This document shows, in pieces, positions 41,013 to 57,723 of a stretch of DNA of 64,000 nucleotides. Position numbers and translations under genes: made by a program. Under the pieces are notes generated by a model. That model was not told the DNA's origin and did no database searches. It worked only from the letters and a program-made list of their open reading frames with translations. Origin of the DNA: Streptomyces sp. CB02056 (GTDB lineage: Bacteria; Actinomycetota; Actinomycetes; Streptomycetales; Streptomycetaceae); contig NZ_LIPD01000020.1 in the NCBI RefSeq assembly GCF_001905545.1, positions 62,001 through 126,000 of the forward strand, written 5' to 3'. Positions within the stretch are counted from its first letter, which is position 1. Each line of letters opens with the position of its first letter.

Positions 41013-42359
41013 TCAGCGCTGCCGCTCGGGCTCCGCGTAGGTGCGGAAGTCCGAGGCGGTCTCCGGCCAGTTGGCCCGCTGCCAGCTCCGCAGTTCCGGG
41101 TACGTCGCGTGGGCGGGCACGACCACCAGGCGCTCGTCGAACCACCGGGTCAGGAACTCGCGCCGGCTGCGCACCTCCTCCCGGGTGCGCCCGCTCAGCA
41201 TGACCTGCCCGACCCCCTGGGTGGTGTCCTGCACCGTGTCCCCCGTCCGGAAGCCGTACGGGAGGTCCAGCCGCACGTGCTCGACACCGGGCAGGGCCCG
41301 GATCTGCTCCAGTGAGGGATAGCCGACCAGGACGCCGGGCCGGTTGGCGAGGAAGAGGGTGCTGACGCTCTCCGGGCGGACGGCCGGCTCGATCGCCGGC
41401 TCGATCCCCTCCGCGCACCGGATGGCGGCTTCGCCCAGGTCCACGCCGAACTTGAACGCCACCGCTTCGGAGATCAGCCCGCCGCCGGTGCGGGCGGCGC
41501 ACTCGCCGAACACGAGCCCGCCGGTGTCGGGCCGGCGGAACAGCTCCATGTGGAACACCCCGCGCCGCAGGCCGAGGGCCCGCAGCGCCTCCGTCACGAC
41601 CGGCCGCGCCAGGGCGAAGGCGTCCGCGTCCTCGGTCGGGTCGAAGCGTTCCAGCTGGAGCACCCGGTTGGCGTCGACGGCGGTCAGGCACGGCTCCGCG
41701 TAGGTGCCCACGCTGAGGAACCGGAGTTCGCCGTCGAAGACCACGCCGTCCGCCATCCACTCCTCGCCCGGCGTGAACTCCTCCAGGACGAAGGTGCGTT
41801 GCGGAACGCCCCGGCGCCGGTACTCGGCGCAGGTGTCGATCAGCTCGGACAGCCCCCGGACGACCGAGGTGTTCCGGGTGCCCGCCCCGGCGATGGGCTT
41901 GAGCACCGCCTTGTCGAAGTCCGCGAGGGCGGACGGATCCAGGTGGTGGATGTCCTCGATGACCTGCGAGGCGCCGACGTCCAGGCCGGCCGCCGCGACG
42001 GCCCGCTTCTGCAGCCACTTGTCCCGGAAGTTCGGGGCGATGTCCGCGGCCACGGCCGTCGGGAGGTCCAGGACCCGGGCGAGTGCCGCGACGGTGACCA
42101 GGGCCTCCTCGTCGGAGGTCTGGAGGAAGCGGAACTCCCGCTCGGCGGCGCCGGTCCGGCGCAGGGCGAGGAGGACGCTCTCGATGCTCGTCGGGTCCTC
42201 GGCGAAGATCCCCACGGCCCCGTCCGGGAGCTTCAGGTAGCCCCAGTCCGCCAGGTGCGGGCCGTGCACCACGTACGGCGTGATGCCGTTCCGGAGGCAG
42301 GCGCGCATCGCGTACGGGTCCGTGCCGACGATCAGGGCCGAGGGCTGGTCCTGGGGCAA
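41013..42359 (-). CDS. ATP-grasp carboxylate-amine ligase (paralogue 1)
   Basis: 448 residues from a TTG start 5 bases after AAGGAG; the start matches the paralogue at 49623, both opening with SALIVGxDPY. ATP-grasp features: DKAVLKPIAGAGTRNTSVV (ATP-binding lysine loop), FVLEEFTPGEEWMADGVV, and the metal-binding end of the active site HMELF...GECAARTGGG. The family joins a carboxylate to an amine or thiol by an acyl-phosphate, as in amino-acid ligases and carnosine synthase. It is the last gene of the minus-strand operon and probably adds an amino acid or similar amine to the cassette's product. More than half of its residues match the second ligase by eye. Substrates are unknown. Confidence 0.9.
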   Translation of the reverse strand: MPQDQPSALIVGTDPYAMRACLRNGITPYVVHGPHLADWGYLKLPDGAVGIFAEDPTSIESVLLALRRTGAAEREFRFLQTSDEEALVTVAALARVLDLPTAVAADIAPNFRDKWLQKRAVAAAGLDVGASQVIEDIHHLDPSALADFDKAVLKPIAGAGTRNTSVVRGLSELIDTCAEYRRRGVPQRTFVLEEFTPGEEWMADGVVFDGELRFLSVGTYAEPCLTAVDANRVLQLERFDPTEDADAFALARPVVTEALRALGLRRGVFHMELFRRPDTGGLVFGECAARTGGGLISEAVAFKFGVDLGEAAIRCAEGIEPAIEPAVRPESVSTLFLANRPGVLVGYPSLEQIRALPGVEHVRLDLPYGFRTGDTVQDTTQGVGQVMLSGRTREEVRSRREFLTRWFDERLVVVPAHATYPELRSWQRANWPETASDFRTYAEPERQR

Positions 42360-42447
42360 GGCTTCTCCTTCGTTGTGGGGCTGAGGGGGCGGCGGTCCGG
42401 GGGCGGACCGGGAAGACGGGTCGGAAGGGTGGACCGGGACGGCGGGT

Positions 42448-43188
42448 CTAGAGGTCGGCGATCCGCCACACCCCGATCGACTTGTCGGCGAAGCGGTGCT
42501 CGACCCGCCTGCCGTCCTCCTCGGTGACGTAGACCTCGGTGCACTGCTCGTCGAGCACCCGGAAGGGCTCGGGCAGCAGGAACGGGGCCCGCCGGAGGTT
42601 GAGCGGACGCCAGCCGCCCGCTTCGGTGGCGGCCTCGTTCCCGGCCCGCCCGGTGAAGGTGGTCGTCGCCAGGTAGGTCGAGCCGCTGCGCCGGATGTTG
42701 TCCAGCGCGCGGTGGACGTCGTCGTCTCCGAGGTGCACCAGGCAGTCGCGGGAGAAGACCAGGTCGACCTCCGGCAGCGGGTCGCGGGTGAGGTCGAGGA
42801 CCCGGAACTCGCGGTCGGCGCGGGCGAAGCGCGCCCGGTTGCGCTCGACCACCGCGGGGACGATGTCGGCACCGAGGTAGCGGTCGACGCCCAGGTCGAC
42901 CCTGGACATCCAGAAGAAGTCCCCGCACGGCGCGTCGAGCAGGCTCCGGACGCCGAGCTCGGCGAGCAGGGACGGCAGTTCGGCACGCAGCGCGGCCGTC
43001 TGGGCCAGGTTCGACCCGAGGCCGGAGCGGGATTCGTCGTCGTCGGCCCCGCTGTCCTCGGTCAGGGTCCAGGCTCCGCTGGCGTAGATCCGGGCGAAGG
43101 TCTCCTGGAGCGTGTCGCGCGGTGGCCCGGCGGCTTCCGGTGCCGCCACGGAACCGTGCGTGCCCTGCTGCCGGGTGTCGTCGGTCAT
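42448..43188 (-). CDS. SAM-dependent methyltransferase
   Basis: 246 residues, starting at an ATG (after AAGGAGG) that overlaps the MFS stop by ATGA. The Rossmann SAM-binding motif reads SLLDAPCGDFFWMSRVDLG, followed by YLGADIVPAVVERNRARF and the motif-IV-like DLVFSRDCLVHLGDDDV. The first 60 residues are divergent and polar. It resembles class I methyltransferases annotated in natural-product and surface-glycan clusters; whether N- or O-methylation occurs cannot be said. It is tightly coupled to the exporter and the ligase gene. Confidence 0.88.
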   Translation of the reverse strand: MTDDTRQQGTHGSVAAPEAAGPPRDTLQETFARIYASGAWTLTEDSGADDDESRSGLGSNLAQTAALRAELPSLLAELGVRSLLDAPCGDFFWMSRVDLGVDRYLGADIVPAVVERNRARFARADREFRVLDLTRDPLPEVDLVFSRDCLVHLGDDDVHRALDNIRRSGSTYLATTTFTGRAGNEAATEAGGWRPLNLRRAPFLLPEPFRVLDEQCTEVYVTEEDGRRVEHRFADKSIGVWRIADL

Positions 43189-44504
43189 TGGTCCTCCTTG
43201 GTCGTACGGACGGATGCCGGCACTGATGCCGAAGCCTGTTGCGGACGGTCTGCCCCCGCCTCCGCCCCCGCCCCCGCCGCGGCCTGCGGCTCGGACGGCA
43301 GGGTGCGGACCCCCGGGACGGCCAGCACGACGCCCGCGGTCGCGGCGACCAGGCAGGCCGCGCCCAGGAAGACGGCGCCGCTGCCGACCCGGTCCGCGAT
43401 CGGGGCGGCGACCGCCAGGCCGAGCGGGAGGAAGACGAACGAGCCGAAGGCGTCGTAGGACATCACCCGGGACATCGACTCCTCCGGCACGTGCTTCTGC
43501 AGTGCCGTGAGGAAGGTGACGTCGTTGAGGCTCATGCACAGGCCGGTGACGAACATCGCGCCGGCGGTGACGGCGACCGGCGCGGCGCAGGCCAGCGCGA
43601 CCAGGGACGGCACGATCCCCAGGGTGAACAGCACCGCGGCCCGCAGGGGCCGGCGGGGCCGCAGCCGGATGGCCAGCAGGCTGCCCGCCACGAAGCCGAC
43701 CGCCTGCGCGGTGAGGACGGCGGCCCATCCGGAGGCGCCGCCGAGGTGCGCCTCGGCCTCGACCGGTCCCAGCACGATGAAGCCGGCGCCGATGCACACG
43801 TTCACCAGCGCGAGTTGTGCCACCGCCGCCCACAGCCAGGTCCGTTCGGTGAACTCCCGCCACCCGTGCCGGAGTTGCGAGAAGATGCCTTCCTCCGTGG
43901 GCGACGGCTGGTCCGCCGTGCCGGTCAGCCGGACTCCGGCGAGGAGCACCGCGGACACCAGGAACGTCGCCGCGTCCACCACCAGTGCCCAGCCGGCGCC
44001 GAGCAGGACGACCAGCACGCCCGCGAGCGCCGCGCCGCCGATGCTGCCCGCGTTCATCGACAGCTGGACCAGCGCGTTGGCGGACTGGATCTTCTCGGCG
44101 GGCACGAGCTGCACCGTGACGCTCCGGGACGCCGGGGTGAACAGCGCGCTGGCGGCGCCGCTGACCATCGACAGGACGACCAGGCCCGCCAGGGAGTCCG
44201 TCCCGGTCAGCACCAGGACCGCGACCGCTCCCTGGGCGAGACCCGCGGTCAGGTCCGCCCCGACCATGACCCGGTGCCGCGGCAGCCGGTCGGCCAGGAC
44301 ACCGCCGTACAGCAGGAACGCGACCTGGGCGGCGATCCGGGCGGCGGCCACGATCCCGAGGGTCGAACCCGAGCCGTCCGGCATTCCGAGGACGGCGAAG
44401 GCGAGCGCCACCGGTGCGATGGCGTCACCCAGCAGGGAGACGGACCGGGCGGAGAACAGCAGCAGGAAGGAACGGTCTCGGAGGATGGAGAGGTCGGCGC
44501 GCAC
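43185..44504 (-). CDS. MFS transporter, candidate product exporter
   Basis: 439-residue major facilitator with about 12 hydrophobic segments, starting at a GTG. The N-terminal signature RDRSFLLLFSARSVSLLGDAIAPVALAFAVL and the loop GGVLADRLPRHRVMVGADL place it near the drug-efflux branch of MFS (MFS_3/TetV-like). The C-terminal tail is Ala/Glu-rich. It sits inside the biosynthetic operon between the HIT and methyltransferase genes and is the obvious exporter or self-resistance pump for the product. Confidence 0.92.
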   Translation of the reverse strand: MRADLSILRDRSFLLLFSARSVSLLGDAIAPVALAFAVLGMPDGSGSTLGIVAAARIAAQVAFLLYGGVLADRLPRHRVMVGADLTAGLAQGAVAVLVLTGTDSLAGLVVLSMVSGAASALFTPASRSVTVQLVPAEKIQSANALVQLSMNAGSIGGAALAGVLVVLLGAGWALVVDAATFLVSAVLLAGVRLTGTADQPSPTEEGIFSQLRHGWREFTERTWLWAAVAQLALVNVCIGAGFIVLGPVEAEAHLGGASGWAAVLTAQAVGFVAGSLLAIRLRPRRPLRAAVLFTLGIVPSLVALACAAPVAVTAGAMFVTGLCMSLNDVTFLTALQKHVPEESMSRVMSYDAFGSFVFLPLGLAVAAPIADRVGSGAVFLGAACLVAATAGVVLAVPGVRTLPSEPQAAAGAGAEAGADRPQQASASVPASVRTTKEDQ

Positions 44505-44555
44505 ACAAGGCCTTTCACGTTCTGGCCCGACGGGATCGAGCTGGTCGGGGAGCCG

Positions 44556-45077
44556 TCACACCGCGGTCCGGTCCGGGCGGTCGGGGGACGGTGCCGAGAG
44601 GCGGGCGCGGGTGGCGGCGAGCCGCTCCAGCGGCACCGGGTCGGCCTTCCAGGGGCGGTGGAGATGGTCCCCGGCCGCCCGGGGCACCAGGTGGACGTGC
44701 AGGTGGAACACGTCCTGCCAGCCCGCGTCCCGGTTCGCCTGGAACAGCGTCAGGCCGTCCGGCGCCAGCACGTCCCGGATCCGCCCGGCCATCAGGTGGA
44801 CGGTGGCCATCACGGCGGCGGCGTCCTCCGGGGTGATCTCCCAGAGGTCGGCGGCGTGGCGCTTGGGGATCACCAGGGTGTGCCCGTCCATGACCGCGGT
44901 GATGTCGAGGAAGGCGATGGTCCGCTCGTCCTCGTGGACGACGGCGGCGGGCAGCCGGCCCCCGACGATGGCGCAGAACACGCAGTCCGCGGACCGCGGG
45001 CCGTCGCCCCGGTCCCGCTCCGGCCCGGCGGTGGGCGCGGTGGGCGCAGGGGCCGCGGTGGTCGGCCGGGGCGTCAT
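44556..45077 (-). CDS. HIT-family nucleotide hydrolase/transferase
   Basis: 173 residues from the ATG that overlaps the glycosyltransferase stop (ATGA). After a Pro/Thr-rich leader of about 35 residues comes a HIT domain: CVFCAIVGGRLPAAVVHEDE, FLDITAVMDGHTLVIPKRH and the histidine triad HLHVHLVP. HIT proteins cleave or transfer nucleoside phosphates (for example adenosine-5'-phosphoramidate or dinucleoside polyphosphates). In this operon it points to a nucleotide or nucleotidyl-activated intermediate. It has kept all three active-site histidines, so it should be active. Confidence 0.93.
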   Translation of the reverse strand: MTPRPTTAAPAPTAPTAGPERDRGDGPRSADCVFCAIVGGRLPAAVVHEDERTIAFLDITAVMDGHTLVIPKRHAADLWEITPEDAAAVMATVHLMAGRIRDVLAPDGLTLFQANRDAGWQDVFHLHVHLVPRAAGDHLHRPWKADPVPLERLAATRARLSAPSPDRPDRTAV

Positions 45078-46171
45078 CGCGCGACCCGGCGGGAGAGTTC
45101 GGCCAGGTCGCCGGCGGTCCGCGACAGCGGGAAGCGCCCGCTGTTGACCAGGCCGGCCGCGGCCAGGTCGTCCAGCCGCTCCGGCGAGCGGAGGAACTCC
45201 TCGATGCGGCCCCGCAGCGCCGTGAAGTCCCCGAAGTCGACCGGGAGCGCGGAGCGGCCGAGCACCTCGGTCAGGCCCGGCACGGGCTGGTAGGCGACCG
45301 GCAGGCCGCACGCCTGCGCCTCGATGGTCACCAGCCCGAACGCCTCCAGCCGGAGCGAGGGGACGATCAGGAGGTCGTGTCCGCCGAACGCGCGCCACAG
45401 GTCCTCCCGGGACAGCCAGCCGAGGCGGCGCACCCGCGACAGGTCGGAGCGTGCGGCCAGGGCCGCGAACTCCGCCGGGGGAGCGGCCACGGAGAGCTCC
45501 ACCCCGGGGAGCGAGGCCACCGCCGCGATCAGGCCGGAGGTGGCCTTCTCGGCGGTGAGCCGACCCGCGTAGAGCACCCGCAGGACGCCCGCTTCGCGCT
45601 CCGCGCGGTGGCCCGGCCCGGTGGGCCGGCCGGCCAGCAGCCGGTCGGGGACGCCCCAGGGGATGTGGACGATCCGGTCCGACGGGACCGGGGCGATCCG
45701 GCGCAGCCGGTCCGCCATCGCCCGGGTGGGGACGACGATCGCGTCGGCCGATGCCGCGGTCTCCCGCAGGACGGCGGCCTGGGTCGGGTGGTCCTCGGCG
45801 AACAGCAGGTCGGTGCCGTGCACCAGCGCGATGCTCGGCCGGTCGGGAAAGACCTGCTGCAGGGCGGCCGTCGCGCCGAAGGCCAGGTGCTGGAGGTGCA
45901 GCACGTCGTGGTCGGCGGCGGGGTACCTGTCCCGGACGGCGGCGCCGAGCCGGTCCACGTAGGCCCAGAACGCCGGCCCCGACACCGTCTTGCCCGGCAC
46001 CGCGAGCAGGGCCGGTGAACCGGAGGTGTCGGGCGCCTGCCGGTCCTCCGGGGCGAGCATGAAGACGTCGGCGGGGATGAGCGGTTCCGGCCCGCCGTAC
46101 AGGTCGCGCAGCAGCTCGACGCTGCCGCCGGGGCTGTCCGGGGGGAGGTCGATCCCGGTGAGGACGTTCAC
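45074..46171 (-). CDS. GT4-family glycosyltransferase
   Basis: 365 residues from a GTG that overlaps the upstream stop by GTGA. GT-B fold: N-terminal acceptor half with VNVLTGIDLPPDSPGGS and DVLHLQHLAFG, donor half with VLRVLYAGRLTAEKATSGLI and the GT4 signature PSLRLEAFGLVTIEAQACGLPVAY (E-x7-E). The retaining GT4 family uses nucleotide sugars. It would glycosylate the product or an intermediate. A glycosyl donor pathway is not present, although a ROK sugar kinase is encoded next to the operon. Confidence 0.9.
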   Translation of the reverse strand: MNVLTGIDLPPDSPGGSVELLRDLYGGPEPLIPADVFMLAPEDRQAPDTSGSPALLAVPGKTVSGPAFWAYVDRLGAAVRDRYPAADHDVLHLQHLAFGATAALQQVFPDRPSIALVHGTDLLFAEDHPTQAAVLRETAASADAIVVPTRAMADRLRRIAPVPSDRIVHIPWGVPDRLLAGRPTGPGHRAEREAGVLRVLYAGRLTAEKATSGLIAAVASLPGVELSVAAPPAEFAALAARSDLSRVRRLGWLSREDLWRAFGGHDLLIVPSLRLEAFGLVTIEAQACGLPVAYQPVPGLTEVLGRSALPVDFGDFTALRGRIEEFLRSPERLDDLAAAGLVNSGRFPLSRTAGDLAELSRRVAR

Positions 46172-46692
46172 GCGAGCTCCTCGTACAGTCGCGATGTGTC
46201 GATGCCGCTGGTCCGGGTGTACTTCCGGCCCATGTTCTGGTAACTGGCCTCCGCGCCGAGGGTCTTGAGGAAGATGATCTTCCCGAAGGTCATCCCCGGA
46301 TAGATCCGCACCGGGCGCACGACGCGGATCTCGAGCGTCCATCGGATGGCGTGGCCGACGTGGCCGAGCGGTGCCGAGACGTGCACCCAGACGCCCAGCG
46401 CGCCCACCGTGCGGTCACCGTTGATCATCTGCGCGAAGCGCTCGGAATGGGTGCGCTCGTGGGTGACCCCGAGGTAGAGCCTGCCCGGCAGCAGCACCAT
46501 GCCGTCCGGCGGGATGGTGCGCTCCTCGAACTCGGTGGAATGCGCCGCGTCGAGTTCGGACTCGCACACCCGGATGGTGTCGCCGAGTCGCCAGTCGTAG
46601 GCGTTCGGGGAAATCCTTCGGGGGTCGAACGGCTCTATGACGATGTCACCGGAGTCGATCGACCTGGCTATTTCCGCCCGGGTGAGGATCAC
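46168..46692 (-). CDS. dCTP deaminase-like protein B (lacks SSxxxR, keeps catalytic Glu)
   Basis: 174 residues from a GTG overlapping the stop of protein A by GTGA. Trimeric dUTPase/dCTP-deaminase fold: opening VILTRAEIARSIDSGDIVIEPFD, PNAYDWRLGDTI, VRIYPGMTFGKIIF and the C-terminal RKYTRTSGIDTSR. Aligned by eye to E. coli and mycobacterial Dcd, the catalytic Glu is kept (E121 in RWTLEI). The phosphate-binding G-K/R-S-S-L-x-R block is degraded to GDRTVGA (Ser to R94, Arg to A98), the substrate-binding Asp is His (H111), and the KYQG lid is KYTR. It is unlikely to be an ordinary homotrimeric deaminase. It may need protein A to form a working site, or bind another ligand. Confidence 0.88.
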   Translation of the reverse strand: MILTRAEIARSIDSGDIVIEPFDPRRISPNAYDWRLGDTIRVCESELDAAHSTEFEERTIPPDGMVLLPGRLYLGVTHERTHSERFAQMINGDRTVGALGVWVHVSAPLGHVGHAIRWTLEIRVVRPVRIYPGMTFGKIIFLKTLGAEASYQNMGRKYTRTSGIDTSRLYEELA

Positions 46693-47216
46693 AGCTGCCC
46701 CAACTTGTCCCGCCAGTAGCGCGATTCCTGAGGACCGACCGCGCCCTGGTACTTCCCGGAATAGGGCTCGATATCGCCGAGCGTGTCGAAGAACATGATC
46801 TGCCCGATCTTCATCCCGGGATACACCCGCAGCGGTCGGACCGCGGACAGCATGAGGGTCCACTGGCCGTGGAAGCCGATGTCCCCGATCGGGGCGGTGA
46901 TCTCCACGAAGAGCCCGAGCCGGCCGACCGAGGAGCGCCCGAAGAGCAGGGGCACGAAGACGTCGGATCCGACCTCCTCCACGGTGTGCCCCAGGTAGAG
47001 CTGGTCGGGCTCCAGCACGAAGCCGCTGGAGTCGATCTTGGTGGCGTCGGTCCGGTTGGGCCGGTACGCGTCGATGACGCTGTCCGTGTAGGTGATCAGC
47101 GTCTCCCCGAGGCAGACGTTGTAGCTGTTCGGGTTCACCTGGTCCCGGTTGAACGGGGATATGGAAATCCTGCCGTCGCGGGCGGATTCAACGATTTCTG
47201 GTCCCGTCAGGATCAC
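46689..47216 (-). CDS. dCTP deaminase-like protein A (keeps SSxxxR, lacks catalytic Glu)
   Basis: 175 residues from GTG 47216, preceded by GGGAG; a TTG further upstream would add 11 residues not found in the family. It opens VILTGPEIVESARDG, with PNSYNVCLGETLI, LRVYPGMKIGQIMFF and a well-kept lid SGKYQGAVGPQESR. The phosphate-binding block is intact (GRSSVGR; S95, R99) and the substrate-binding Asp is kept (D112), but the catalytic Glu is Met (M122 in WTLMLS, an ungapped alignment with TLELS). Its losses are the mirror image of protein B. It is the first gene of the minus-strand operon, divergent from the ROK gene. Confidence 0.88.
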   Translation of the reverse strand: MILTGPEIVESARDGRISISPFNRDQVNPNSYNVCLGETLITYTDSVIDAYRPNRTDATKIDSSGFVLEPDQLYLGHTVEEVGSDVFVPLLFGRSSVGRLGLFVEITAPIGDIGFHGQWTLMLSAVRPLRVYPGMKIGQIMFFDTLGDIEPYSGKYQGAVGPQESRYWRDKLGQL

Positions 47217-47299
47217 AGGAGGCTCCCACTCTTCCGGCCTGCCGGACAAAACGGCGGGCGCGCACCGACGAGGCTTTTACGGGTCGTTTTCCAGGACGT

Positions 47300-47329
47300 T
47301 TGCCAGCTCGTCCGAGCATGCTCCATACT
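47300..47329 (+). promoter_or_regulatory. Possible promoter of the ROK gene
   Basis: TTGCCA, 18 bases, CATACT, ending 8 bases before the ROK start codon. If used, the transcript would be almost leaderless. This is a motif match by eye only, in the 121-base gap between the divergent Dcd-like and ROK genes. Confidence 0.3.
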
Positions 47330-47337
47330 CATCCCCC

Positions 47338-48258
47338 ATGAAACACGTCATAGCCCTTGATGTGGGCGGTACCGGAATCAAGTCCGCCCTGATCGGAAGC
47401 AGCGGAGAATTACTTCACCAGGCCCGCCGGGAAACCCCTCGCGAACGCGGCACCGACACCGTCGTGGAATCGGTGCTCGAGGCGGCCGCCGAAATGCGCG
47501 CCCACGGCGAGCGCCGCTTCGGCCGGCCCGCGGCCGCGGTGGGCGTCGCCGTGCCCGGCATCGTCGACGTCGGCACGGGCACCGTCGTGTTCGCGGCCAA
47601 CCTCGGTTGGCACGACCTCCCGCTCGGCGCGCTGCTGGCCGACCGCCTGGGCGGCGTGCCGGTCGCCTTCGGCCACGACGTCCGCACCGGAGGACTCGCC
47701 GAGCAGCGGATCGGCGCCGGCCGGGGCACCGAACAGTTCCTCTTCCTGGCCATCGGCACCGGCATCGCGGGCGCGATCGCCCTCGGCGGACGGATCGAGG
47801 CGGGCGCCCACGGCGCCGGCGGCGAGATCGGCCACATCGTGGTCCGGCCCGGAGGCGCCGCCTGCCCCTGCGGCCGGCGCGGCTGTCTGGAGCAGTACGC
47901 CTCGGCCTCGGCCGTCGGACGGGCCTGGGCCGCGGCCTCGGGCCGACCGGCCGCCGACGCGGCGGACTGCGTCCGGGCGCTGGAGGCCGGCGACAGCCGC
48001 GCCCGGACGGTCTGGGACGACGCCCTGGCCGCGCTCGCCGACGGTCTCGTCACCTGCCTCACCCTGCTCGACCCGGGCACCGTGATCATCGGAGGCGGGC
48101 TGGCCGAGGCCGGGGACACCCTGTTCGAACCGCTGCGCGCGGCGGTCGGGAAGCGGCTCGCCTTCGAGCGGATGCCGGAGATCGTGCCGGCGGCACTCGG
48201 GGAGACGGCGGGCTGCCTCGGCGCCGGCCTGCTGGCCTGGGACCTCCTCGGCGGCTGA
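47338..48258 (+). CDS. ROK-family sugar kinase
   Basis: 306 residues from ATG 47338. The ATP-binding start reads HVIALDVGGTGIKSALIG, followed by GVAVPGIVDVGTG, FGHDVRTGGLAEQ (catalytic Asp), AIGTGIAGAI, and the ROK zinc site GHIVVRPGGAACPCGRRGCLEQY. There is no N-terminal DNA-binding domain, so it is a kinase (glucose, GlcNAc or similar) and not a repressor. It diverges from the Dcd-like genes and may feed a sugar phosphate to the glycosyltransferase of the cassette, or simply be a neighbour. Confidence 0.92.
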   Translation: MKHVIALDVGGTGIKSALIGSSGELLHQARRETPRERGTDTVVESVLEAAAEMRAHGERRFGRPAAAVGVAVPGIVDVGTGTVVFAANLGWHDLPLGALLADRLGGVPVAFGHDVRTGGLAEQRIGAGRGTEQFLFLAIGTGIAGAIALGGRIEAGAHGAGGEIGHIVVRPGGAACPCGRRGCLEQYASASAVGRAWAAASGRPAADAADCVRALEAGDSRARTVWDDALAALADGLVTCLTLLDPGTVIIGGGLAEAGDTLFEPLRAAVGKRLAFERMPEIVPAALGETAGCLGAGLLAWDLLGG

Positions 48259-48272
48259 CGTCCTTCGCCCCC

Positions 48273-48310
48273 CGCCGTCGGCCCGCCGCTCCCGCAGCGG
48301 GCCGACGGCG
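48273..48310. terminator. Terminator hairpin between convergent genes
   Basis: 14-bp perfect stem CGCCGTCGGCCCGC / GCGGGCCGACGGCG with a 10-base loop, between the ROK gene (plus) and the ArgG-like gene (minus). Confidence 0.8.
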
Positions 48311-48337
48311 CGGGTACGGGACGGTACGGGCCGCGCA

Positions 48338-49622: not shown

Positions 49623-50957
49623 TCAGTCGTCCGAGTAGGTGCCGAAGGAGGAAGCGGATTCCGGCCAGTTCTCCTTCTGCCACCGGCGCAGTTCGGGGTA
49701 GCTCGCGTGCGCGGGCACGACCAGCAGCCGCTCGTCGAACCACGCGGTCAGGGAGTCGCGGCGTTCGCGGAACTCCTCCCGGGTGCGGCCGCTCAGCACG
49801 ACCTGGCCGACGGCCTCGGTGGTGCTCGCGAGCACGTCCGCCATGCGGAAGCCGTAGGGGAGTTCGAGCCGCAGGTACTCGACCCCGGGCAGGGCGCGCA
49901 CCTCGGCCGGGGTCGGATAGCCGACCAGGACGCCGGGACGGTTGTTGAGGTAGGTGGAGCCGATCGTGTCGGGCCGCACCGAGGGCTCGATCCGGGGGTC
50001 GGTCCCGGCCGCGCAGCGCAGCCCGGCGAGCGCCAGGTCGACGCCGAACTTGGCTTCGACCAGCTCGGGTTGGAGCAGTCCGCCGGTCCGGGCCGCGCAC
50101 TCGCCGAATACCAGCTTCCCGGTGTCCGGCTGGTGGAAGAGCTCCATGTGGAAGGTGCCGCGCCGCAGGCCGAGCGCGCGCAGGGCTGGTTCCACGACCG
50201 AGCGTGCGAGGTCGTAGGCGGAGGCGTCGGTGACGGGGTCGAACACCTCGACCTGGAGCGCCCGGTTGAAGTCCACCGTGCTCAGGCAGGGCTCGCCGTA
50301 CGTGCTGACGCTGAGGAACCGCAGCTCTCCGTCGAAGACCACGCCGTCGGCGATCCACTCGTCGCCCGCAACGAACTCCTCCAGGACGAAGGTCCGTTGG
50401 GGCATGCCGGCGCGCCGGAGCTCGGCACACCGGGCGATCAGCCCGGCGCGGCCCTCGACGACCGAGGTGTTCCGGGTGCCGGCACCGGCGACCGGCTTGA
50501 GGACCGCCTTGTCGAAGTCCTCGACGCTCGCCGGATCCAGGTGGTGGACGTCCTCGATCAGGCGGGACCGGGTGACCTCGATGCCGGCCGCGGCGAGCGC
50601 CTCCTTCTGCAGCCACTTGTCCCGGAACCGCACGGCGGTGTCCGGGTCCACGGCGACCGGGGCGCCCAGGACCTCGCCCAGGGCCGCCACGGTGACCAGG
50701 GCGAACTCGTCCCCGGTGTGGACGCAGTGGAAGTCCCGGTCGGCGAGGCCGGCCCGGTGCAGCGCGAGCAGCACGCTCTCCACGCTGGAGGTGTCCTCGG
50801 CGAAGACGGTCTCGACCCCGTCCGGAATTCCGATGAACCCCCAGTCGCGCAGGCCGGGGCCGTGCACCACGACGGGCTCGATTCCGTTGCGGAGCGCGGC
50901 CCGGATCAGGTACGGGTCCGCTCCGACGATCAGGGCCGAGGATCGGTTCTCAGACAC
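49623..50957 (-). CDS. ATP-grasp carboxylate-amine ligase (paralogue 2)
   Basis: 444 residues from a GTG preceded by AAAGGAG. Same architecture as the ligase at 41013: SALIVGADPYLIRAALRNGI, DKAVLKPVAGAGTRNTSVV, FVLEEFVAGDEWIADGVV, HMELF...GECAARTGGLL. The third Gly of the RTGGG loop is Leu here, and the specificity region around residues 270-330 differs, so the two ligases probably take different substrates. It heads a two-gene unit with the ArgG-like protein. Two paralogous ligases in one cassette suggest two successive amide bonds made outside the NRPS logic. Confidence 0.9.
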   Translation of the reverse strand: MSENRSSALIVGADPYLIRAALRNGIEPVVVHGPGLRDWGFIGIPDGVETVFAEDTSSVESVLLALHRAGLADRDFHCVHTGDEFALVTVAALGEVLGAPVAVDPDTAVRFRDKWLQKEALAAAGIEVTRSRLIEDVHHLDPASVEDFDKAVLKPVAGAGTRNTSVVEGRAGLIARCAELRRAGMPQRTFVLEEFVAGDEWIADGVVFDGELRFLSVSTYGEPCLSTVDFNRALQVEVFDPVTDASAYDLARSVVEPALRALGLRRGTFHMELFHQPDTGKLVFGECAARTGGLLQPELVEAKFGVDLALAGLRCAAGTDPRIEPSVRPDTIGSTYLNNRPGVLVGYPTPAEVRALPGVEYLRLELPYGFRMADVLASTTEAVGQVVLSGRTREEFRERRDSLTAWFDERLLVVPAHASYPELRRWQKENWPESASSFGTYSDD

Positions 50958-51753
50958 GGGTCTCCTTTGGAACGGGGCGGGTCCAGCCCACGATGTTCGT
51001 GCATCGATTCAGTGGCAATGCCCCACCTGATGCCGCCGCTTCGGCGAATTCGCCGGGGCCTCGGGCGCGAATGACCGGGGGAATGCCTGCGGGGATGCGC
51101 GGAATGCGTCCCGTTCCGCGTATCCGTCACGCTCCGACGGATACGCGAACCCCCCGGTCGGCTCCGGAACCATGGCGTCGTGGTTCTTGATCCATAGTCC
51201 ATGACAAGCAGTTGATGTGCAATGGCACATTGCATCTCGCGGTGCCGGCGTCCCTATTTGACCCGTTTTGGCCGTCTATTTTCACATCGGATCACAAGTG
51301 GAGTCGGATCCTCCAGCGCGCTCGACAGGGCTTCCCCGGAGGGCATGTGACGGACCATCGGACAACCGGGCGTGTCTCCGGCGATCTGGGCAAGCGGGGC
51401 CGGATCGGACATAGCGCATGATTGCCGGTATTCCCCGGAAGAGGGTGGCGGGACCTCTTCCGATTGCTTAGGCTCCTGGAGGTTCCGGCACTTGCCCGGT
51501 GCGGCGGAAAACGGGATCCGACGGAATTCCCGGACGCGCCGCGGTCGGCCCTTTCCGCCTCCCGGCCCGGCCGGAGTGAGGACACCTGACAATTCCGTCC
51601 CGGCCGACCCGGACCTTCACGGGAACCCGCGCGACCCGTCGGCCGCCGGGATTCCCGCCCACCCGCGCGGCGTCGGCGTCGGTCCCATCAACACGCATTA
51701 CGCGGCGCCGTGTCCATCGACCCGGTCAGCGCACGAGAGGACGGAGTCAGCCA
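50958..51753. other. 796-bp divergent intergenic region of the second cassette
   Basis: Separates the divergent ATP-grasp (minus) and A-T NRPS (plus) genes. No convincing gene was seen. It includes an AT-rich patch at about 51180-51300, unusual for this genome (ccctatttgacccgttttgg), where promoters for both directions probably lie. It also holds an inverted repeat at 51218-51234 and a hairpin GGAAGAGG / CCTCTTCC at 51437-51461 that could act in the leader of the NRPS gene. Confidence 0.6.
51218..51234. promoter_or_regulatory. Inverted repeat, candidate operator
   Basis: TGCAATG-gca-CATTGCA, a perfect 7-3-7 inverted repeat inside the AT-rich part of the divergent intergenic region. It is a plausible site for a cluster regulator, although no regulator gene is found in the cassette. 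Confidence 0.4.
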
Positions 51754-53673
51754 GTGATCCAGCGGAACAACGGACCGACCGGGGACGAGCCGGGGGCCAC
51801 CGTGCACGCCCTGTTCGAACACCATGCGGAGCTCGCCCCGGACCGGACGGCCGTGGTCGCGGACGACGGGCAGCTGAGCTACCGCGAGCTGAACGCCCGC
51901 GCGAACCGGCTGGCGTGGCGGCTGCGCGAGGCGGGCGTCGGGCCCGACACGCTCGTGGGCATCTGCGTCGAACGCTCCGCGGCGATGATCGTCGGGCTGC
52001 TGGGCATCCTGAAGGCGGGCGGTGCGTACGTCCCGCTCGACGCCGGATACCCCGCCGAGCGGCTGGCGTTCATGCTCCGGGACACCGCCGCCCCGGTGCT
52101 GGTGACCCAGCGCCGGCTCGCCGACCGGCTCCCCGCGGGCCGGGCGACCGTCGTCCTGCTCGACGAGGACCCGGCCCACCACCCCTCCGGGAACCCGCCC
52201 GTCGTCGGCCGGCCGGAGCTCGCCAACGTCATCTACACCTCCGGATCCACCGGAACACCCAAGGGCGTCCTGGTTCCGCACCGGAGCGTCGTCCACCTGG
52301 TGACCGATCAGGACTACGTGTCCATCGCGCCGGACGACCGGGTCGCCGCCCTCGCCACGCTGTCCTTCGACGCCTCCACCTTCGAGATCTGGGGGCCCCT
52401 GCTCAACGGCGCGACCTGCGTCGTCTACAGCTTCGGCGGCACCGACCTGACCGCCCTCTGCCGCCGGGTCCACCGGGACGCCGTCTCCGTCCTGCACCTG
52501 ACCAGCCCCGTCTTCCGGCTGCTGGAGCCGGCGCACCTCGCCGACCTCTCCGGGGTGCACACCCTCCTGTTCGGCGGGGACTCCATCCGGGCCGAGGTGG
52601 CGGACCTCGCACGGCAGGCCTTCGCGGGGCGGCTGATCCACCTGTACGGGCCGACCGAGACGACGGGCTTCGCGACCTACCAGGACGTCCGGACCATGGC
52701 ACCGGACGCCACGATGATCCCGATCGGCACCCCGCTCGACCGGGTCCGGGTCCGGGTGCTCGGGCCGGACGGAGCGGACGTTCCGGACGGGGAGAGCGGA
52801 GAGCTCCACATCGGCGGAGCCGGCATGACCCGCGGCTACCTCGGCCGCGCCGAACTCACCGCCGAACGCTTCGTCCCGGACCCCGACGACCGCGCCGGCT
52901 CCCCGCTCTACCGCACCGGTGACCTCGTCCGGCGCGGCCCGGACGGGGCGCTGCGCTTCCTGGGCCGGATCGACCGCCAGATCAAGGTGCGCGGCTACCG
53001 GATCGAACCGGGCGAGATCGAGGCCGCGCTCACCCGGCACCCCGGGGTGCACGACGCGGTCGTGGTGGCCCGGGACGACGGCGCGGGGGACAAGCGCCTC
53101 GACGCCTACGTCGTCCCCTCCTCCGGACCGGCCTCCGGTCCGGCCTCGGGACCTGCCTCCGGACCTGTCGGCACCGCCGACGGCGCGGGACGCGACCGGG
53201 AACTGGTGGCCGACCTGCGCCGGCGGCTCTCGACGGAGCTGCCGCGGTACCAGCGCCCGGCCTCGATCACCGTGATACCGGCGATCCCGCTCACGACGAA
53301 CCTCAAGGTGGACGCGGCGAAGCTGCCCGCCCCCGCCGAGGAGCGCGATGCCGCCCAGGGCTCCCCGACCGCCCCCCGCGACGAGCTGGAGTCGGCGCTC
53401 GCCGCGCTCTGGCGCGAGATGCTCGGACTCACCGAGGTCGGGATCGACGACGACTTCTTCACGCTCGGCGGCGACTCCGTCTCGGCGGTGCAGCTGGCCA
53501 CCGCCGCGACCCGGCTTTCCGGCGTCCCGGTCACGGTGCGTGACGTCATCGGCTCCCCGACCATCCGCGGACTGTCCGCCCTGGCCGACGGATCCGCCGC
53601 GGTACGGACCGACGGTGCGGCCGGCGCTCCGGCCGGTTCGCCGCGGCCGACTCCCGCCGGAGGCCCCGCATGA
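51754..53673 (+). CDS. Stand-alone NRPS A-T protein, hydroxyphenylglycine-like pocket
   Basis: 639 residues from a GTG 7 bases after GGAG. An adenylation domain (about 15-525) with [27 protein letters not shown] and the A10 lysine in TTNLKVD, then a flexible SGPASGPASGP linker within the A-domain tail, and a carrier domain with FFTLGGDSVSAVQL (about 540-615). The pocket read against GrsA is D-A-F-H-L-G-L-G-F-K, resembling the Hpg code DIFHLGLLCK. With a 4-hydroxymandelate synthase in the same operon this suggests loading of 4-hydroxyphenylglycine or a close relative. The stop overlaps the next gene by 4 bases. Substrate is inference. Confidence 0.9.
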   Translation: MIQRNNGPTGDEPGATVHALFEHHAELAPDRTAVVADDGQLSYRELNARANRLAWRLREAGVGPDTLVGICVERSAAMIVGLLGILKAGGAYVPLDAGYPAERLAFMLRDTAAPVLVTQRRLADRLPAGRATVVLLDEDPAHHPSGNPPVVGRPELANVIYTSGSTGTPKGVLVPHRSVVHLVTDQDYVSIAPDDRVAALATLSFDASTFEIWGPLLNGATCVVYSFGGTDLTALCRRVHRDAVSVLHLTSPVFRLLEPAHLADLSGVHTLLFGGDSIRAEVADLARQAFAGRLIHLYGPTETTGFATYQDVRTMAPDATMIPIGTPLDRVRVRVLGPDGADVPDGESGELHIGGAGMTRGYLGRAELTAERFVPDPDDRAGSPLYRTGDLVRRGPDGALRFLGRIDRQIKVRGYRIEPGEIEAALTRHPGVHDAVVVARDDGAGDKRLDAYVVPSSGPASGPASGPASGPVGTADGAGRDRELVADLRRRLSTELPRYQRPASITVIPAIPLTTNLKVDAAKLPAPAEERDAAQGSPTAPRDELESALAALWREMLGLTEVGIDDDFFTLGGDSVSAVQLATAATRLSGVPVTVRDVIGSPTIRGLSALADGSAAVRTDGAAGAPAGSPRPTPAGGPA

Positions 53674-55661
53674 GCGGCCGGGCCCCCGCCGACGCGCCCC
53701 TGACCAGGGCGCAGAAGTTCCAGTGGTTCCTGGAGAAGGGGCTGGCCGAAGGACTCCGGCCGCTCCCGGCGGGGACCGACGAGGCCGCCGCCCAGCGCCT
53801 GGTGCACGCGCTGGAGGACCGGTTCGAGATCCTCCGCACCTCCCTCGCCGTCGTCGACGGAGAACTGCGGCAGCTGGTCCACCCGTCGGGCTCCCCGGTG
53901 CGGGTCGTCGACGTCGCTCCGGACGGCACCGCCGAGCGGAGCCTGGCCGACCTGGTACGGGTGTTCACCGCGCACACCCACGGCAGGGTCGGCCGGTTCC
54001 TCGTGCAGTTCCACCTGCTCCGGTCCGAGGACCGGCGCTGGCTGGCGGTGGTCGCCGACAACGTGGCCGTGGACGCCGGGTTCCACGGCGTGGTGGACCA
54101 GCAGCTCACCGACCTGCTGCACGGACGGACGGACAGCCCGGACACCGGAGTCCCGCACCGGGGACCCGGGATCCAGCCGGCCGAGCAGGCCCGGCGCGAG
54201 GCCGACCCCGGCGAGGACACCGAACGCACCAGGGCGCTCGACTACCTGCGGCGGCACTTCTCCCACGCACCGGCACGGATGCACCCGCACCACCCTCCGG
54301 GCGAAGGGACGGCGGGCCGCTACTACCGGAGCACGCTCACCCTGCCCGGCGCGGACGGCCTCTTCGCCCGCGGCATGGCCCACACCGGGCTGCTGCCCTC
54401 GGCCGTCGTCCTCGCCGCCTTCGCCCAACTGCTCTGCCTGCGTGCCGACACCGACGCGTGCACCGTCAACGTGTCGCTCGACAACCGGCACAACGCCGAC
54501 CTCCGCCGGGTGCTGTGCGCCACCGCGCAGCGCACCCCGGTGGCCCTCCGCCGGCAGGGCCGGAGCCTGCTGGAAGCGGCCGCCGAGGTGCAGCGGACCC
54601 TGGCCGAGGGGCACCCCGCCTACGGCCGGTACGACCCCTTCGACCTGATCCGCGAACGGGTCGAGGCCCAACACCGCCGAGGCGTCTGCCTCTCCACCGA
54701 CCTCGCCTTCAACTTCATTCCGCCGCCGCAGGGTTGGCGGGAGCTGATCGAGGCCGAGCCCGGCCCCACGGACGAGCCCGGCGCCGCGGATCGGCCTGGT
54801 TCCACGGACGGGCCCGGCTCGACGGGCGGGCCTGGCTCCACGGACCGGCCCGGCTCCCGGATCAGCTGGGCGAGCACCGCGGAGACCTCCTACGAGTACG
54901 GAGCCAGCCTGTCGGTCCGCTGGGCCGACCCGCACACCGTCCGGCTGTCCGTCCACGGCGACTCCAGGGTCCTGGAACCCGAGCAGTGCGCGGCACTGCT
55001 GCGCGGCGTCGAGCTGGTCCTGACCCGGGCCGCGACGGGCCGGGACTGCTCGCCGGACGAGGTCGCGTCCGCCGTGGGACTGCTCCGGCTTCCCCGCGGC
55101 CCCCGCGAACGGTACTCCGGCGGGCGGTGGATCGACCTCCGCGCGATCGAGGACCTCCTGCTCGCCCTGCCCGGGGTCACGGCGGCCGGGGCGTCGCTCG
55201 AACCCGGCGGCGCGTCCGGCACCCCCCGGCTGACCGCCCGGGTCACCGCGGCCGACGGCAGCGCGCTCACCCCGTTCGACCTGCGGGAGGAACTGCTCCG
55301 AGCCGTGCACACGGGCGCGATCCCGGCGGTCCCCGACTGGTTCGAGCTCGACGGCGCCGACGCCTCGGACGGGCGGTCGCTCCCCGGCCGCCCGGCGGCC
55401 ACGGCCGAGGAGACCGCGCTGCTCACCGCCCTGAGCGGGGCCGGGACCGAGCCCGGCCGGGCCCCCGACCCCGACCTCTGCTACCTGCGGGCGGGCGGAC
55501 GGCCGGAGCACTACCCGCGCTTCGCGGAGCTGCTCCGCCGGCTCGGCTACCACCCGCCCGGTTTCGCCCAGGTCAGCGGCATGGCCACCCTGCGCAGCCT
55601 GGCCCGGGAACTCCGTCCGTCCGGCCGGGCCGGAGGCCGGCCCGCGGCGCCGGCCGGCTGA
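53670..55661 (+). CDS. Aberrant condensation-domain protein with degenerate A-tail and carrier
   Basis: 663 residues, overlapping the A-T gene by ATGA. The N-terminal 450 residues follow the NRPS C-domain pattern (LTRAQKFQWFLEKGL; LRTSLAVVDGELRQLVHPSG), but the HHxxxDG motif is replaced by ADNVAVDAG near residue 130: both histidines are lost and only Asp remains. A PGSTD-type repeat linker (about 363-395) is inserted. The region at 480-575 resembles the C-terminal subdomain of an A domain (WIDLRAIEDLLLALPGV...AVPDWFELDG) without the catalytic lysine. The last 50 residues resemble a carrier in which the GGxS site reads AGGRPE. It may be a non-catalytic scaffold or a condensation-like enzyme with new chemistry. 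Confidence 0.85.
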   Translation: MSGRAPADAPLTRAQKFQWFLEKGLAEGLRPLPAGTDEAAAQRLVHALEDRFEILRTSLAVVDGELRQLVHPSGSPVRVVDVAPDGTAERSLADLVRVFTAHTHGRVGRFLVQFHLLRSEDRRWLAVVADNVAVDAGFHGVVDQQLTDLLHGRTDSPDTGVPHRGPGIQPAEQARREADPGEDTERTRALDYLRRHFSHAPARMHPHHPPGEGTAGRYYRSTLTLPGADGLFARGMAHTGLLPSAVVLAAFAQLLCLRADTDACTVNVSLDNRHNADLRRVLCATAQRTPVALRRQGRSLLEAAAEVQRTLAEGHPAYGRYDPFDLIRERVEAQHRRGVCLSTDLAFNFIPPPQGWRELIEAEPGPTDEPGAADRPGSTDGPGSTGGPGSTDRPGSRISWASTAETSYEYGASLSVRWADPHTVRLSVHGDSRVLEPEQCAALLRGVELVLTRAATGRDCSPDEVASAVGLLRLPRGPRERYSGGRWIDLRAIEDLLLALPGVTAAGASLEPGGASGTPRLTARVTAADGSALTPFDLREELLRAVHTGAIPAVPDWFELDGADASDGRSLPGRPAATAEETALLTALSGAGTEPGRAPDPDLCYLRAGGRPEHYPRFAELLRRLGYHPPGFAQVSGMATLRSLARELRPSGRAGGRPAAPAG

Positions 55662-55723
55662 CCGGGCCTCCGACGGCGCGACCTCGCCAACCGACCCGTG
55701 ACCCACCGACCCTCGGAGCACCC

Positions 55724-56563
55724 ATGACCAACGCAATGCCGGAGCCGGTCCTGTCCCAGGAGGAGGTCGATCGCTTCTGGCGGGACGGATACCTGCTGAT
55801 CCGCGGCGTCCTGACCAGGCAGCAGGCCAGGCACCACGCCGGCCTGATCCTCGACCTGCTCCCGCGAGACCTGCGCGTCCCCGACCACTGGGAGGCGTAC
55901 GACGGCCGGTTCAAACCCTTCAACACCCCGGGGAACCAGACCTTCGACGGACCGGAGTTCATCCCGCTCTTCCAGAACGAGCGGCTCTACCGGGTGGCGG
56001 CCCAGCTCCTGGGACACCCCCGACTGCTCGTCCGGGACGGCTCGGTGGCCATCACCATGCGCAACGACACGGCGCACCCCAGCGAGCTGAGCCAGGACCT
56101 GCACATCGACCCGGCGGTACCCGAGGACGCGGACGAGTTCCTGCTCACCCCCGAGGAGGTCGAGATCGGGGGCTGCTACTACTTCACGGACGTCGCCCCG
56201 GGCGGCGGCGGCATCCACGTCGTGCCCGGCGGCCACCGGATCGTCGAGGCCGAGGCCCGCGCCGTCCGCCGGGGGCGGCAGCTGCACGACAAGTGGCGCA
56301 ACATCCCGGACCTCGAGAGCGTCGAAGTGACCGGGCAGGCAGGCGACTTCGTGCTGACCCACCATCTGATGCCGCACGCCGCCTCGCACAACCGGCGCCC
56401 CGAGGTCCGGGTCGCCCAGTTCGTCCGCTACGCGCGGGACGACCAGCCCTGGGACGCCGGCGAACGCCCCGGTGACCGCCCGGCCGGTCACTCCTACAAC
56501 GACCTGCAGACCGCGGCGATGACCCCGCTGGGCCGCCGGCTGCTCGGCGTCGACCCCTGGTAG
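55724..56563 (+). CDS. PhyH-family Fe(II)/2-oxoglutarate dioxygenase
   Basis: 279 residues. Phytanoyl-CoA-dioxygenase-like opening (LSQEEVDRFWRDGYLLIRGVLT); the iron triad is visible as HID (H127, D129 in LHIDPAV) and the distal His218 (LMPHAASHN), followed by RPEVRVAQFVRY with an Arg that can hold 2-oxoglutarate. It is probably active. Enzymes of this family hydroxylate or halogenate amino acids or carrier-bound intermediates. Its place between the C-like protein and hydroxymandelate synthase suggests tailoring of the aromatic building block or of the loaded amino acid. The start ATG lacks a strong ribosome site (GGAGCACCC). Confidence 0.9.
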   Translation: MTNAMPEPVLSQEEVDRFWRDGYLLIRGVLTRQQARHHAGLILDLLPRDLRVPDHWEAYDGRFKPFNTPGNQTFDGPEFIPLFQNERLYRVAAQLLGHPRLLVRDGSVAITMRNDTAHPSELSQDLHIDPAVPEDADEFLLTPEEVEIGGCYYFTDVAPGGGGIHVVPGGHRIVEAEARAVRRGRQLHDKWRNIPDLESVEVTGQAGDFVLTHHLMPHAASHNRRPEVRVAQFVRYARDDQPWDAGERPGDRPAGHSYNDLQTAAMTPLGRRLLGVDPW

Positions 56564-56658
56564 CGGGCCCTGGCGGTGGCCGGTCCAGCACCAGTGGACC
56601 GGTCACCGGCACCGGTACCGGCACGCCCGGCAGACCATCCCTCAAGGAGGCCACCACC

Positions 56659-57723
56659 ATGACGACACACCCGGACGGCATACCGCTCGACCTGTCCGTC
56701 GACCACGTAGAGCTGTACGTGGAGGACCTCGACGCCAGCGCACGCCACTACGCCCGGGCCTACGGGTTCACCGTGTACGCCACGGCCGACCGGCCGGGCG
56801 AGGCGAGGTCCGTCGCCATCGGCCGGGAGCACATCCGGCTGGTCCTCACCCAGGCCCTGGCGGAGGACCACCCCGCCGCCGACTACGTCCGGCGGCACGG
56901 GGACGGCGTCGCCGACATCGCCCTGGCCGTACCCGACGTGGTCGCCGCCTTCGCCGCGGCCGTCCGGCGCGGCGCCCGGCCACTGGCCGAACCCGAGGAG
57001 ACGGACGGCGTGGTCACCGCGGCCGTCGCCGGCTTCGGCGACCTCCGGCACACCCTGGTCCAGCGCCGCGCGGGAACCGACCACCGGCCGCTGCCCGGTA
57101 TCACCCCGGCACCGCGGAGCGAGCCGGAAGCGGACACCGGCCTGCTGGCGGTCGACCACTTCGCGGTGTGCGTCGAGGCGGGCCTGCTCCGGTCCACCGT
57201 CGCGTTCTACGAGCAGGTCCTCGGCCTGCGCAACACCTTCACCGAGAGGATCGTCGTCGGCGCCCAGGCCATGGACTCCGAGGTGGTGCAGTCGGCGTCC
57301 GGCGGCCTCACGCTCACCATCATCGAGCCCGACACCAGCCGCGAGCCCGGCCAGATCGACCACTTCATCAAGAACCACGGCGGCTCCGGCGTCCAGCACA
57401 TCGCCTTCCGCACCGACGATGCCGTGCGGACCGTCCGGACGATGGCCGAGCAGGGGGTGGCGTTCCTGTCGACGCCGGGCCCCTACTACCGGATGCTCGC
57501 CGAGCGGCTGCGGCTGACCCGGCACTCCGTGCCCGCGCTCGCCGCCCTGGGCATCCTCGTCGACGAGGACCACGAAGGCCAGCTCTTCCAGGTCTTCACC
57601 CGGACGCTGCACCCCCGGCGGACCCTGTTCTTCGAGGTCATCGAGCGGGTCGGGGCCACGACCTTCGGCAGCGGCAACATCAAGGCACTGTACGAAGCGG
57701 TGGAAGCGGAACGGCACGAGTGA
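56659..57723 (+). CDS. hmaS: 4-Hydroxymandelate synthase (HmaS/HPPD family)
   Basis: 354-residue non-haem iron dioxygenase of the HPPD/HmaS family, after AAGGAGG. The iron ligands are visible: H167 (VDHFAV), H247 (GVQHIAF) and E326 (FFEVIER), each six residues later than I recall for the Amycolatopsis HmaS. The segment IVVGAQAMDSEVVQSASG follows HmaS and not typical tyrosine-catabolism HPPD. HmaS turns 4-hydroxyphenylpyruvate into 4-hydroxymandelate, the first step to 4-hydroxyphenylglycine. The next two enzymes (HmO oxidase, HpgT transaminase) are not in the window, so either they lie elsewhere or hydroxymandelate itself is used. HPPD activity is the main alternative. Confidence 0.88.
   Translation: MTTHPDGIPLDLSVDHVELYVEDLDASARHYARAYGFTVYATADRPGEARSVAIGREHIRLVLTQALAEDHPAADYVRRHGDGVADIALAVPDVVAAFAAAVRRGARPLAEPEETDGVVTAAVAGFGDLRHTLVQRRAGTDHRPLPGITPAPRSEPEADTGLLAVDHFAVCVEAGLLRSTVAFYEQVLGLRNTFTERIVVGAQAMDSEVVQSASGGLTLTIIEPDTSREPGQIDHFIKNHGGSGVQHIAFRTDDAVRTVRTMAEQGVAFLSTPGPYYRMLAERLRLTRHSVPALAALGILVDEDHEGQLFQVFTRTLHPRRTLFFEVIERVGATTFGSGNIKALYEAVEAERHE

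Follow-up and report, generated by a model that had tools for sequence, protein, structure and literature searches.

Background

Auranthine is a fungal product of a nonribosomal peptide synthetase (NRPS). Among the enzymes of its biosynthesis are the nitrile synthetases ArtA/NitB (PDB 9LEI, 9LEH; preprint PMC13060819); according to that source, ArtA is an argininosuccinate-synthetase-like enzyme that dehydrates an amide to a nitrile and contacts the amide through residues Q146, S197 and D199. Other described systems relevant here are the ATP-grasp L-amino acid ligases (for example PDB 4WD3), the dCTP deaminases and dCTP deaminase-dUTPases (for example 2QXX of Mycobacterium tuberculosis), and the enzymes HmaS, Hmo and HpgT with the adenylation-thiolation (A-T) proteins that supply and load 4-hydroxyphenylglycine (Hpg) for NRPS. 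Relatives of each occur together in a gene cluster of Streptomyces sp. CB02056, at positions 41013-58554 of the window, by which we mean the whole 64,000-nucleotide stretch analysed (contig NZ_LIPD01000020.1, positions 62,001 to 126,000).

Genes were called by codon usage and assigned to families with Pfam and NCBIfam (Table 1). Read in this way, the sequence holds one conserved unit, an Hpg pathway, a bacterial relative of ArtA, and a complementary pair of Dcd proteins with a GT4 glycosyltransferase and a HIT protein. It is an evenly balanced proposition, in our judgment, that the region is a complete, self-contained cluster for an undescribed compound, in which an Hpg unit and amino acids added by ATP-grasp ligases would be placed on a glycosylated nucleotide-derived core and one carboxamide would be converted to a nitrile.

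Results

Conservation of the cluster

The order of genes on both strands is identical in three other genomes (G031, G071 and G072), with about 58-95% protein identity and different flanking genes. Chance proximity is excluded because both-strand order is conserved in these three genomes with different flanks, and by this measure the two strand units are one cluster. The full cluster, in the same order, occurs in 4 of 70 genomes of the genus, as do paired ATP-grasp genes. Every part that the initial annotation had named in this DNA is present where it was placed, and its proposal that the parts form a single cluster agrees with the conserved order. Its right-hand limit at 57723 falls short. The EEP gene is found in all four full copies, at the right end in three and beside ATP-grasp ligase 1 in G072, and is therefore a cluster member; it also adjoins the Dcd module in Actinoplanes pyxinae (locus L090). 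On this evidence the natural end of the cluster is the EEP gene, for an extent of about 17.5 kb.

A predicted nitrile synthetase and two ATP-grasp ligases

The ArgG-related protein scores 563 bits to the NCBIfam model argG_rel ("argininosuccinate synthase-related") and falls below the cutoffs of the argG equivalog model. Among solved structures it is closest to 9LEI and 9LEH, both deposited as nitrile synthetase, with an E-value of 3e-95 against 4e-38 for the best ArgG, a lead of about 190 bits; identity to 9LEI is about 50% in the N-terminal half. From its title and citation we take 9LEI to be ArtA, and one numbering offset (29) puts Q146, S197 and D199 all on the deposited chain. All three are identical in the ArgG-related protein, as Q141, S192 and D194. 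True ArgG has Gly at the position of Q141 and shares the serine and the aspartate, while its aspartate-binding motif GKGND is SQNT in the ArgG-related protein. Likeness to the enzymes of auranthine biosynthesis lies in full-length homology, the three amide-contacting residues and loss of the ArgG aspartate site. In a phylogenetic tree with long branches, bacterial ArgG-related proteins group with 9LEI, split from ArgG at 100/100. The AlphaFold model of the protein is poor, with a predicted local distance difference test (pLDDT) score of 55 from a shallow alignment.

The ArgG-like synthetase of the initial annotation is thus present as a gene, but its product stands nearer to ArtA than to ArgG and is most likely a nitrile synthetase, acting from amide to nitrile, not an Arg-type or amide-forming enzyme. 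The cluster accordingly probably makes a nitrile, as judged from these residues and homologies. Retention of ArgG-type chemistry, in which an amine would be condensed with a ureido or amide oxygen into a guanidine, an amidine or a group resembling argininosuccinate, or in which the enzyme would be an amide ligase, is unlikely. The ArgG fold, an intact SGGLDS P-loop, matches to Pfam Arginosuc_synth and the active-site serine and aspartate in common with ArgG speak for it; the altered aspartate site, the closer match to nitrile synthetase, the fully supported split in the tree and a separate ArgG homologue elsewhere in the strain's genome speak against it. On the residues and the tree, Arg-type guanidine chemistry was rejected.

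Auranthine derives from an NRPS, whereas the present nitrile synthetase candidate is an actinomycete enzyme accompanied by two ATP-grasp ligases and by Hpg and glycosyl genes. The ligases resemble L-amino acid ligases in their ATP-grasp core and LAL_C2 domain, but similarity to solved members is weak, and here two copies, 66% identical to one another, stand beside the predicted nitrile synthetase. Orthologues of ligase 1 show 77-87% identity in G031, G071 and G072; no ATP-grasp homologue above 49% identity was found in the other genomes of a 395-genome sample of the family. Four of five other argG_rel copies in the genus have an ATP-grasp gene no more than about 2 kb away, and we therefore read the two enzyme types as a pair that would make first an amide and then a nitrile. 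Four more genomes of the genus encode proteins of the argG_rel type next to NRPS or other ATP-grasp genes.

The hydroxyphenylglycine branch

Directly 3' of hmaS in G031, G071 and G072 are a gene of the FMN-dependent mandelate/lactate-oxidase type and then an aminotransferase gene, which position and family identify as hmo and hpgT. With these assignments, the Hpg pathway is complete at the cluster in all three genomes. The window copy lacks both genes, having just 66 bp (57724-57789) between hmaS and the EEP gene. Homologues of Hmo and HpgT are encoded elsewhere in the strain's 9.5-Mb genome; contig 34 has a full hmaS-hmo-hpgT set. HmaS matches the solved hydroxymandelate synthase 2R5V with 381 bits (E 6e-113), as against 335 bits for 7YVV, named as a 4-hydroxyphenylpyruvate dioxygenase (HPPD), and 231 bits (E 2e-67) for the HPPD structure 1T47; it is nearer to hydroxymandelate synthase than to HPPD by sequence. 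The code of Hpg-specific A domains is DIFHLGLLCK, and the pocket of the A-T protein, DAFHLGLGFK, looks close to it. Because relatives carry HmaS, Hmo and HpgT beside this Hpg-coded A-T protein, an Hpg unit in the product is strongly indicated, as the arylglycine-type unit of the initial annotation had anticipated.

Known Hpg systems are resembled in the full gene set of three relatives and in the Hpg-like pocket; they differ in that a degenerate condensation-type (C-like) protein and a PhyH oxygenase take the place of an NRPS line here, and in that the window copy is without Hmo and HpgT. In the window copy of the C-like protein, alignment shows DNxxxDA at the place of the condensation motif HHxxxDG, so that the catalytic histidine is missing; the homologue at L090 retains a histidine at that position. 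Its mediocre AlphaFold model (pLDDT 58, shallow alignment) matches C/X domains in Foldseek at E 3e-15, which lends support to a condensation-domain fold. The tail of the protein reads as an A-subdomain-like part followed by a T-like part without the usual serine.

The complementary Dcd pair and its module

Dcd1 and Dcd2 share a fold with the dCTP deaminases. A dCTP deaminase has RSSxGR and the catalytic glutamate on one chain, a combination absent from both proteins, and both fall below the NCBIfam dCTP_deam cutoff. Searching named genomes with Dcd1 gave 80 actinobacterial loci. Dcd1 has RSSxGRLG with Met at the place of the catalytic glutamate in 80 of 80, and Dcd2 keeps the glutamate without RSSxGR in 79 of 79. 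By motif content, then, they are a conserved complementary pair, each lacking what the other keeps. Whereas a dCTP deaminase such as 2QXX is complete in itself, the halves are split here over two paired proteins, with GT4 next to them in nearly all loci. Plasmids of Streptomyces, Nonomuraea and Rhizobium carry more distantly related pairs with a similar split, in which one chain is complete and the other has Gln for Glu. Since active sites of the dUTPase/Dcd fold form between subunits, we infer that Dcd1 and Dcd2 would make a heteromer with one composite active site. No description of such a half-broken, matched Dcd pair was found in the open-access literature searched.

Dcd1, Dcd2 and GT4 are adjacent, co-oriented and in fixed order in 77 of the 80 loci, and occur without the rest of the cassette in about 76 loci. 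Their contexts are exclusive: 63 loci have a MurA-like gene, 16 have HIT, and none has both. MurA-like loci also carry a metallophosphoesterase, and 59 of them a serine hydrolase as well. This Streptomyces operon (MurA-like, metallophosphoesterase, Dcd1, Dcd2, GT4, serine hydrolase) has the three module genes in the same order as the window, at about 50-75% identity; it otherwise differs in content, with no HIT, Hpg, ATP-grasp or ArgG-related genes. Examples are L152 (7447-13310), some 60 further loci and the plasmid locus L183 (7480-13292), often adjoining XRE/flavoprotein and relaxase-like genes. Of the HIT loci, eleven encode an AurF-like oxygenase, and genes for polysaccharide deacetylase, GH3 and HAD proteins are found in several. 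In five, which are kin of the cassette, ROK takes the place of the AurF-like oxygenase (a ROK gene is present at L089, L090 and L093 as well as in the window). The neighbours of related Dcd pairs are often nucleotide and sugar enzymes: a cytidine deaminase and a UTP-glucose-1-phosphate uridylyltransferase, or PIG-L deacetylase, GT4, HIT, phosphodiesterase and a prolyl-tRNA synthetase (ProRS) paralogue, or a MurA-like enzyme and metallophosphoesterase. In an even sample of the class the module occurs in 4 of 394 genomes. Dcd1-Dcd2-GT4 is a mobile module, widespread though rare.

Active dCTP deaminases are known phage-defence enzymes. The idea that Dcd1-Dcd2-GT4, with or without HIT, serves resistance, defence or nucleotide sensing, travelling with gene clusters and mobile elements, and has no biosynthetic role is nonetheless improbable. 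It gains from the MurA-type version, found near relaxase-like and XRE regulator genes and on plasmids, and from a score of HIT against the PADLOC model ThsC. PADLOC, however, gives no match for Dcd1, Dcd2 or GT4, so that the test left the defence-system reading unsupported; biosynthetic operons with AurF, deacetylase, GH3 or Hpg genes enclose the HIT-type copies, often with translational coupling; and the order with a glycosyltransferase is strict.

Two other loci with Dcd pairs deserve mention. A plasmid of Streptomyces sp. NBC_00239 (L187, 6846-20492) encodes a related Dcd pair with TauD dioxygenase, PIG-L deacetylase, WbqC, GT4, a ProRS paralogue, HIT, two radical SAM proteins and LD-carboxypeptidase, and may direct an aminoacyl-nucleoside-like product with the ProRS copy for self-resistance. 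In Actinomadura terrae (L107, 4186-6186), an Otr(A)/Tet(M)-type ribosomal protection protein is encoded beside an AurF-Dcd1-Dcd2-GT4-HIT cluster; the ribosome may be the target of the AurF-type branch.

Modular assembly and surroundings

Parts of the cluster recur in other combinations. In Micromonospora phaseoli (L093) the Dcd module adjoins Hpg genes, the C-like protein and PhyH (72% identity to the window's); in A. pyxinae the Hpg branch, with NRPS pieces, is joined to it in part. The ATP-grasp/nitrile trio is combined with the Dcd module only in the four full-cluster genomes and is missing from nine other HIT-type genomes searched. The cassette thus reads as a three-module assembly of glycosyl-nucleotide core, arylglycine and ligase/nitrile genes, and by gene content is one branch of the wider family of Dcd1-Dcd2-GT4 loci. 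As to whether the minus- and plus-strand units occur independently, which the initial annotation had set as a counterargument to its proposal, they are together in all four full copies; separation is seen at the level of the Dcd1-Dcd2-GT4 module.

A separate NRPS cluster lies at window positions 212-26458, with a 7977-residue synthetase, an MbtH protein, a P450 and an SRPBCC protein. It is very improbable that the cassette is the right arm of this cluster and tailors its peptide. The two share a contig, at 14.5 kb distance, and both have NRPS parts, but metal-ATPase, sulfate permease and sigma-factor genes intervene, in the three relatives the 60-67 kb compared contain the cassette but not that NRPS, and the four A-domain codes read from the synthetase include none of Hpg type. 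Membership of the 7977-residue NRPS was rejected for the intervening unrelated genes and its absence from the neighbourhoods compared in the relatives. Least probable of the alternatives is a pair of unrelated neighbours, a minus-strand ligase/glycosyl unit and a plus-strand Hpg unit, suggested by the opposite strands and the many genomes with Dcd1-Dcd2-GT4 alone, but opposed by the retention of both units in four genomes around one divergent promoter region and by the arrangement in M. phaseoli.

Table 1. Genes and intergenic region of the cluster, in window positions.
Feature	Position	Strand	Evidence
ATP-grasp ligase 1, L-amino acid ligase type, LAL_C2 domain	41013..42386	-	Pfam LAL_C2 / ATP-grasp_4
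Class I S-adenosylmethionine (SAM) methyltransferase	42448..43188	-	Pfam Methyltransf_25/11
MFS exporter	43185..44504	-	Pfam MFS_1
HIT-family nucleotide hydrolase/transferase, HLHVHLVP triad intact	44556..45077	-	Pfam HIT 1e-21
GT4 glycosyltransferase, EX7E motif	45074..46171	-	Pfam Glycos_transf_1, NCBIfam
Dcd2, dCTP-deaminase fold, catalytic Glu kept, RSSxGR motif gone	46168..46692	-	Pfam DCD
Dcd1, dCTP-deaminase fold, RSSxGRLG kept, Met at catalytic Glu place	46689..47216	-	Pfam DCD
ROK sugar kinase, DxGGT and CxCGxxGCxE motifs	47335..48258	+	Pfam ROK
ArgG-related protein, predicted ATP-dependent nitrile synthetase (amide to nitrile)	48338..49531	-	NCBIfam argG_rel, PDB matches
ATP-grasp ligase 2	49623..50957	-	Pfam; PDB L-amino acid ligase 4WD3, E 7e-15
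Divergent intergenic/promoter region	50958..51753	.	four-genome alignment
A-T didomain, Hpg-like pocket, T domain intact (LGGDS)	51754..53673	+	domain search, pocket readout, motif
Degenerate condensation-type (C-like) protein, no Pfam match	53670..55661	+	alignment, Foldseek
PhyH-type Fe/2-oxoglutarate dioxygenase, HxD intact	55724..56563	+	Pfam PhyH, motif
4-hydroxymandelate synthase HmaS, HmaS/HPPD family	56659..57723	+	best PDB match 2R5V
EEP-family phosphatase/phosphodiesterase	57790..58554	-	Pfam Exo_endo_phos

Catalytic motifs are intact in HIT, PhyH, GT4, ROK, HmaS and EEP. In a PDB sequence search, GT4 is nearest, weakly, to glucosyl/N-acetylglucosaminyl GT4 enzymes such as MshA/BshA and maltose-1-phosphate synthase. 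The methyltransferase is optional, being present in G031 alone among the full-cluster relatives, missing from G071 and G072, and found also at L090. Overlaps of 4 bp couple Dcd1-Dcd2, Dcd2-GT4, GT4-HIT and MFS-methyltransferase on the minus strand, and the A-T and C-like genes overlap similarly on the plus strand. Within the 796-bp divergent region that sets the two strand units apart, the inverted repeat ATGTGC-AATG-GCACAT (51215-51230) falls in a block conserved across relatives in the four-genome alignment and is the single such site in the window, against 0.04 expected; it is a possible operator.

Elsewhere in the window, at 38543-40910, divergent genes on either side of an extracytoplasmic function (ECF)-type sigma factor encode two secreted-domain proteins that closely resemble each other, an arrangement that looks like a duplicated sigma/anti-sigma locus. 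A large surface protein encoded at 27003-31130 contains five DUF7507 repeats and has an LPNTG-type C-terminus. At 60681-62909 is a Stf0 sulfotransferase gene, preceded by in-frame short tandem repeats.

Discussion

In the pathway we propose, HmaS, with Hmo and HpgT from elsewhere in the genome, would make Hpg, which the A-T protein would load and PhyH would probably hydroxylate on or near the carrier, the C-like protein holding or transferring the unit. RSSxGR of Dcd1 and the catalytic glutamate of Dcd2 would meet at the subunit interface of a heteromer, with a pyrimidine nucleotide or a nucleotide sugar as its substrate. GT4 would add a hexose or hexosamine, with sugar phosphate from ROK, and HIT and EEP would cleave phosphates to leave the finished glycosylated core. 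The two ATP-grasp ligases would couple amino acids or produce a carboxamide, and the ArgG-related enzyme would adenylate this carboxamide and dehydrate it to a nitrile. The methyltransferase, where present, would finish the product, and the MFS pump would export it. That product is probably antibiotic-like, an unusual amino acid and a nitrile joined to a sugar/nucleotide part. Of the nucleoside or glycoside suggested by the initial annotation, a nucleotide/sugar component is plausible; word searches of open-access text gave no described pathway with this gene set, in line with its statement on this point.

Several points weigh against this proposal. The match to ArtA is about 40% over full length, and the substrate, even the reaction, may differ. 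That the half-sites of Dcd1 and Dcd2 meet at one interface is argued from what is known of the dUTPase/Dcd fold. Without its own hmo and hpgT, the window copy would have to draw on genes at other loci; alternatively, decay of the cluster may be under way in this strain. Lacking its catalytic histidine, the C-like protein is of doubtful catalysis and may be inert. Finally, open-access full text gave no described product or pathway, and no known nucleoside or glycopeptide antibiotic cluster, with this gene set.

Nitriles serve as valued warheads in protease inhibitors, and few ATP-dependent nitrile-forming enzymes are described; if the proposal is true, a bacterial ArtA-like enzyme with ATP-grasp ligases would be a new minable source of nitrile formation. 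More tentatively, and with somewhat less than even confidence, Dcd1-Dcd2 may be a new kind of obligate heteromeric enzyme that performs, with GT4, an undescribed nucleotide-sugar step central to a family of actinobacterial metabolites, of which the cassette would be the Hpg and ArtA-type branch. Dcd1-Dcd2-GT4-HIT offers a genetic handle to a compound family of which the open-access literature searched gave no description, and the complementary Dcd pair presents a testable, putative split active site conserved across many actinobacteria.

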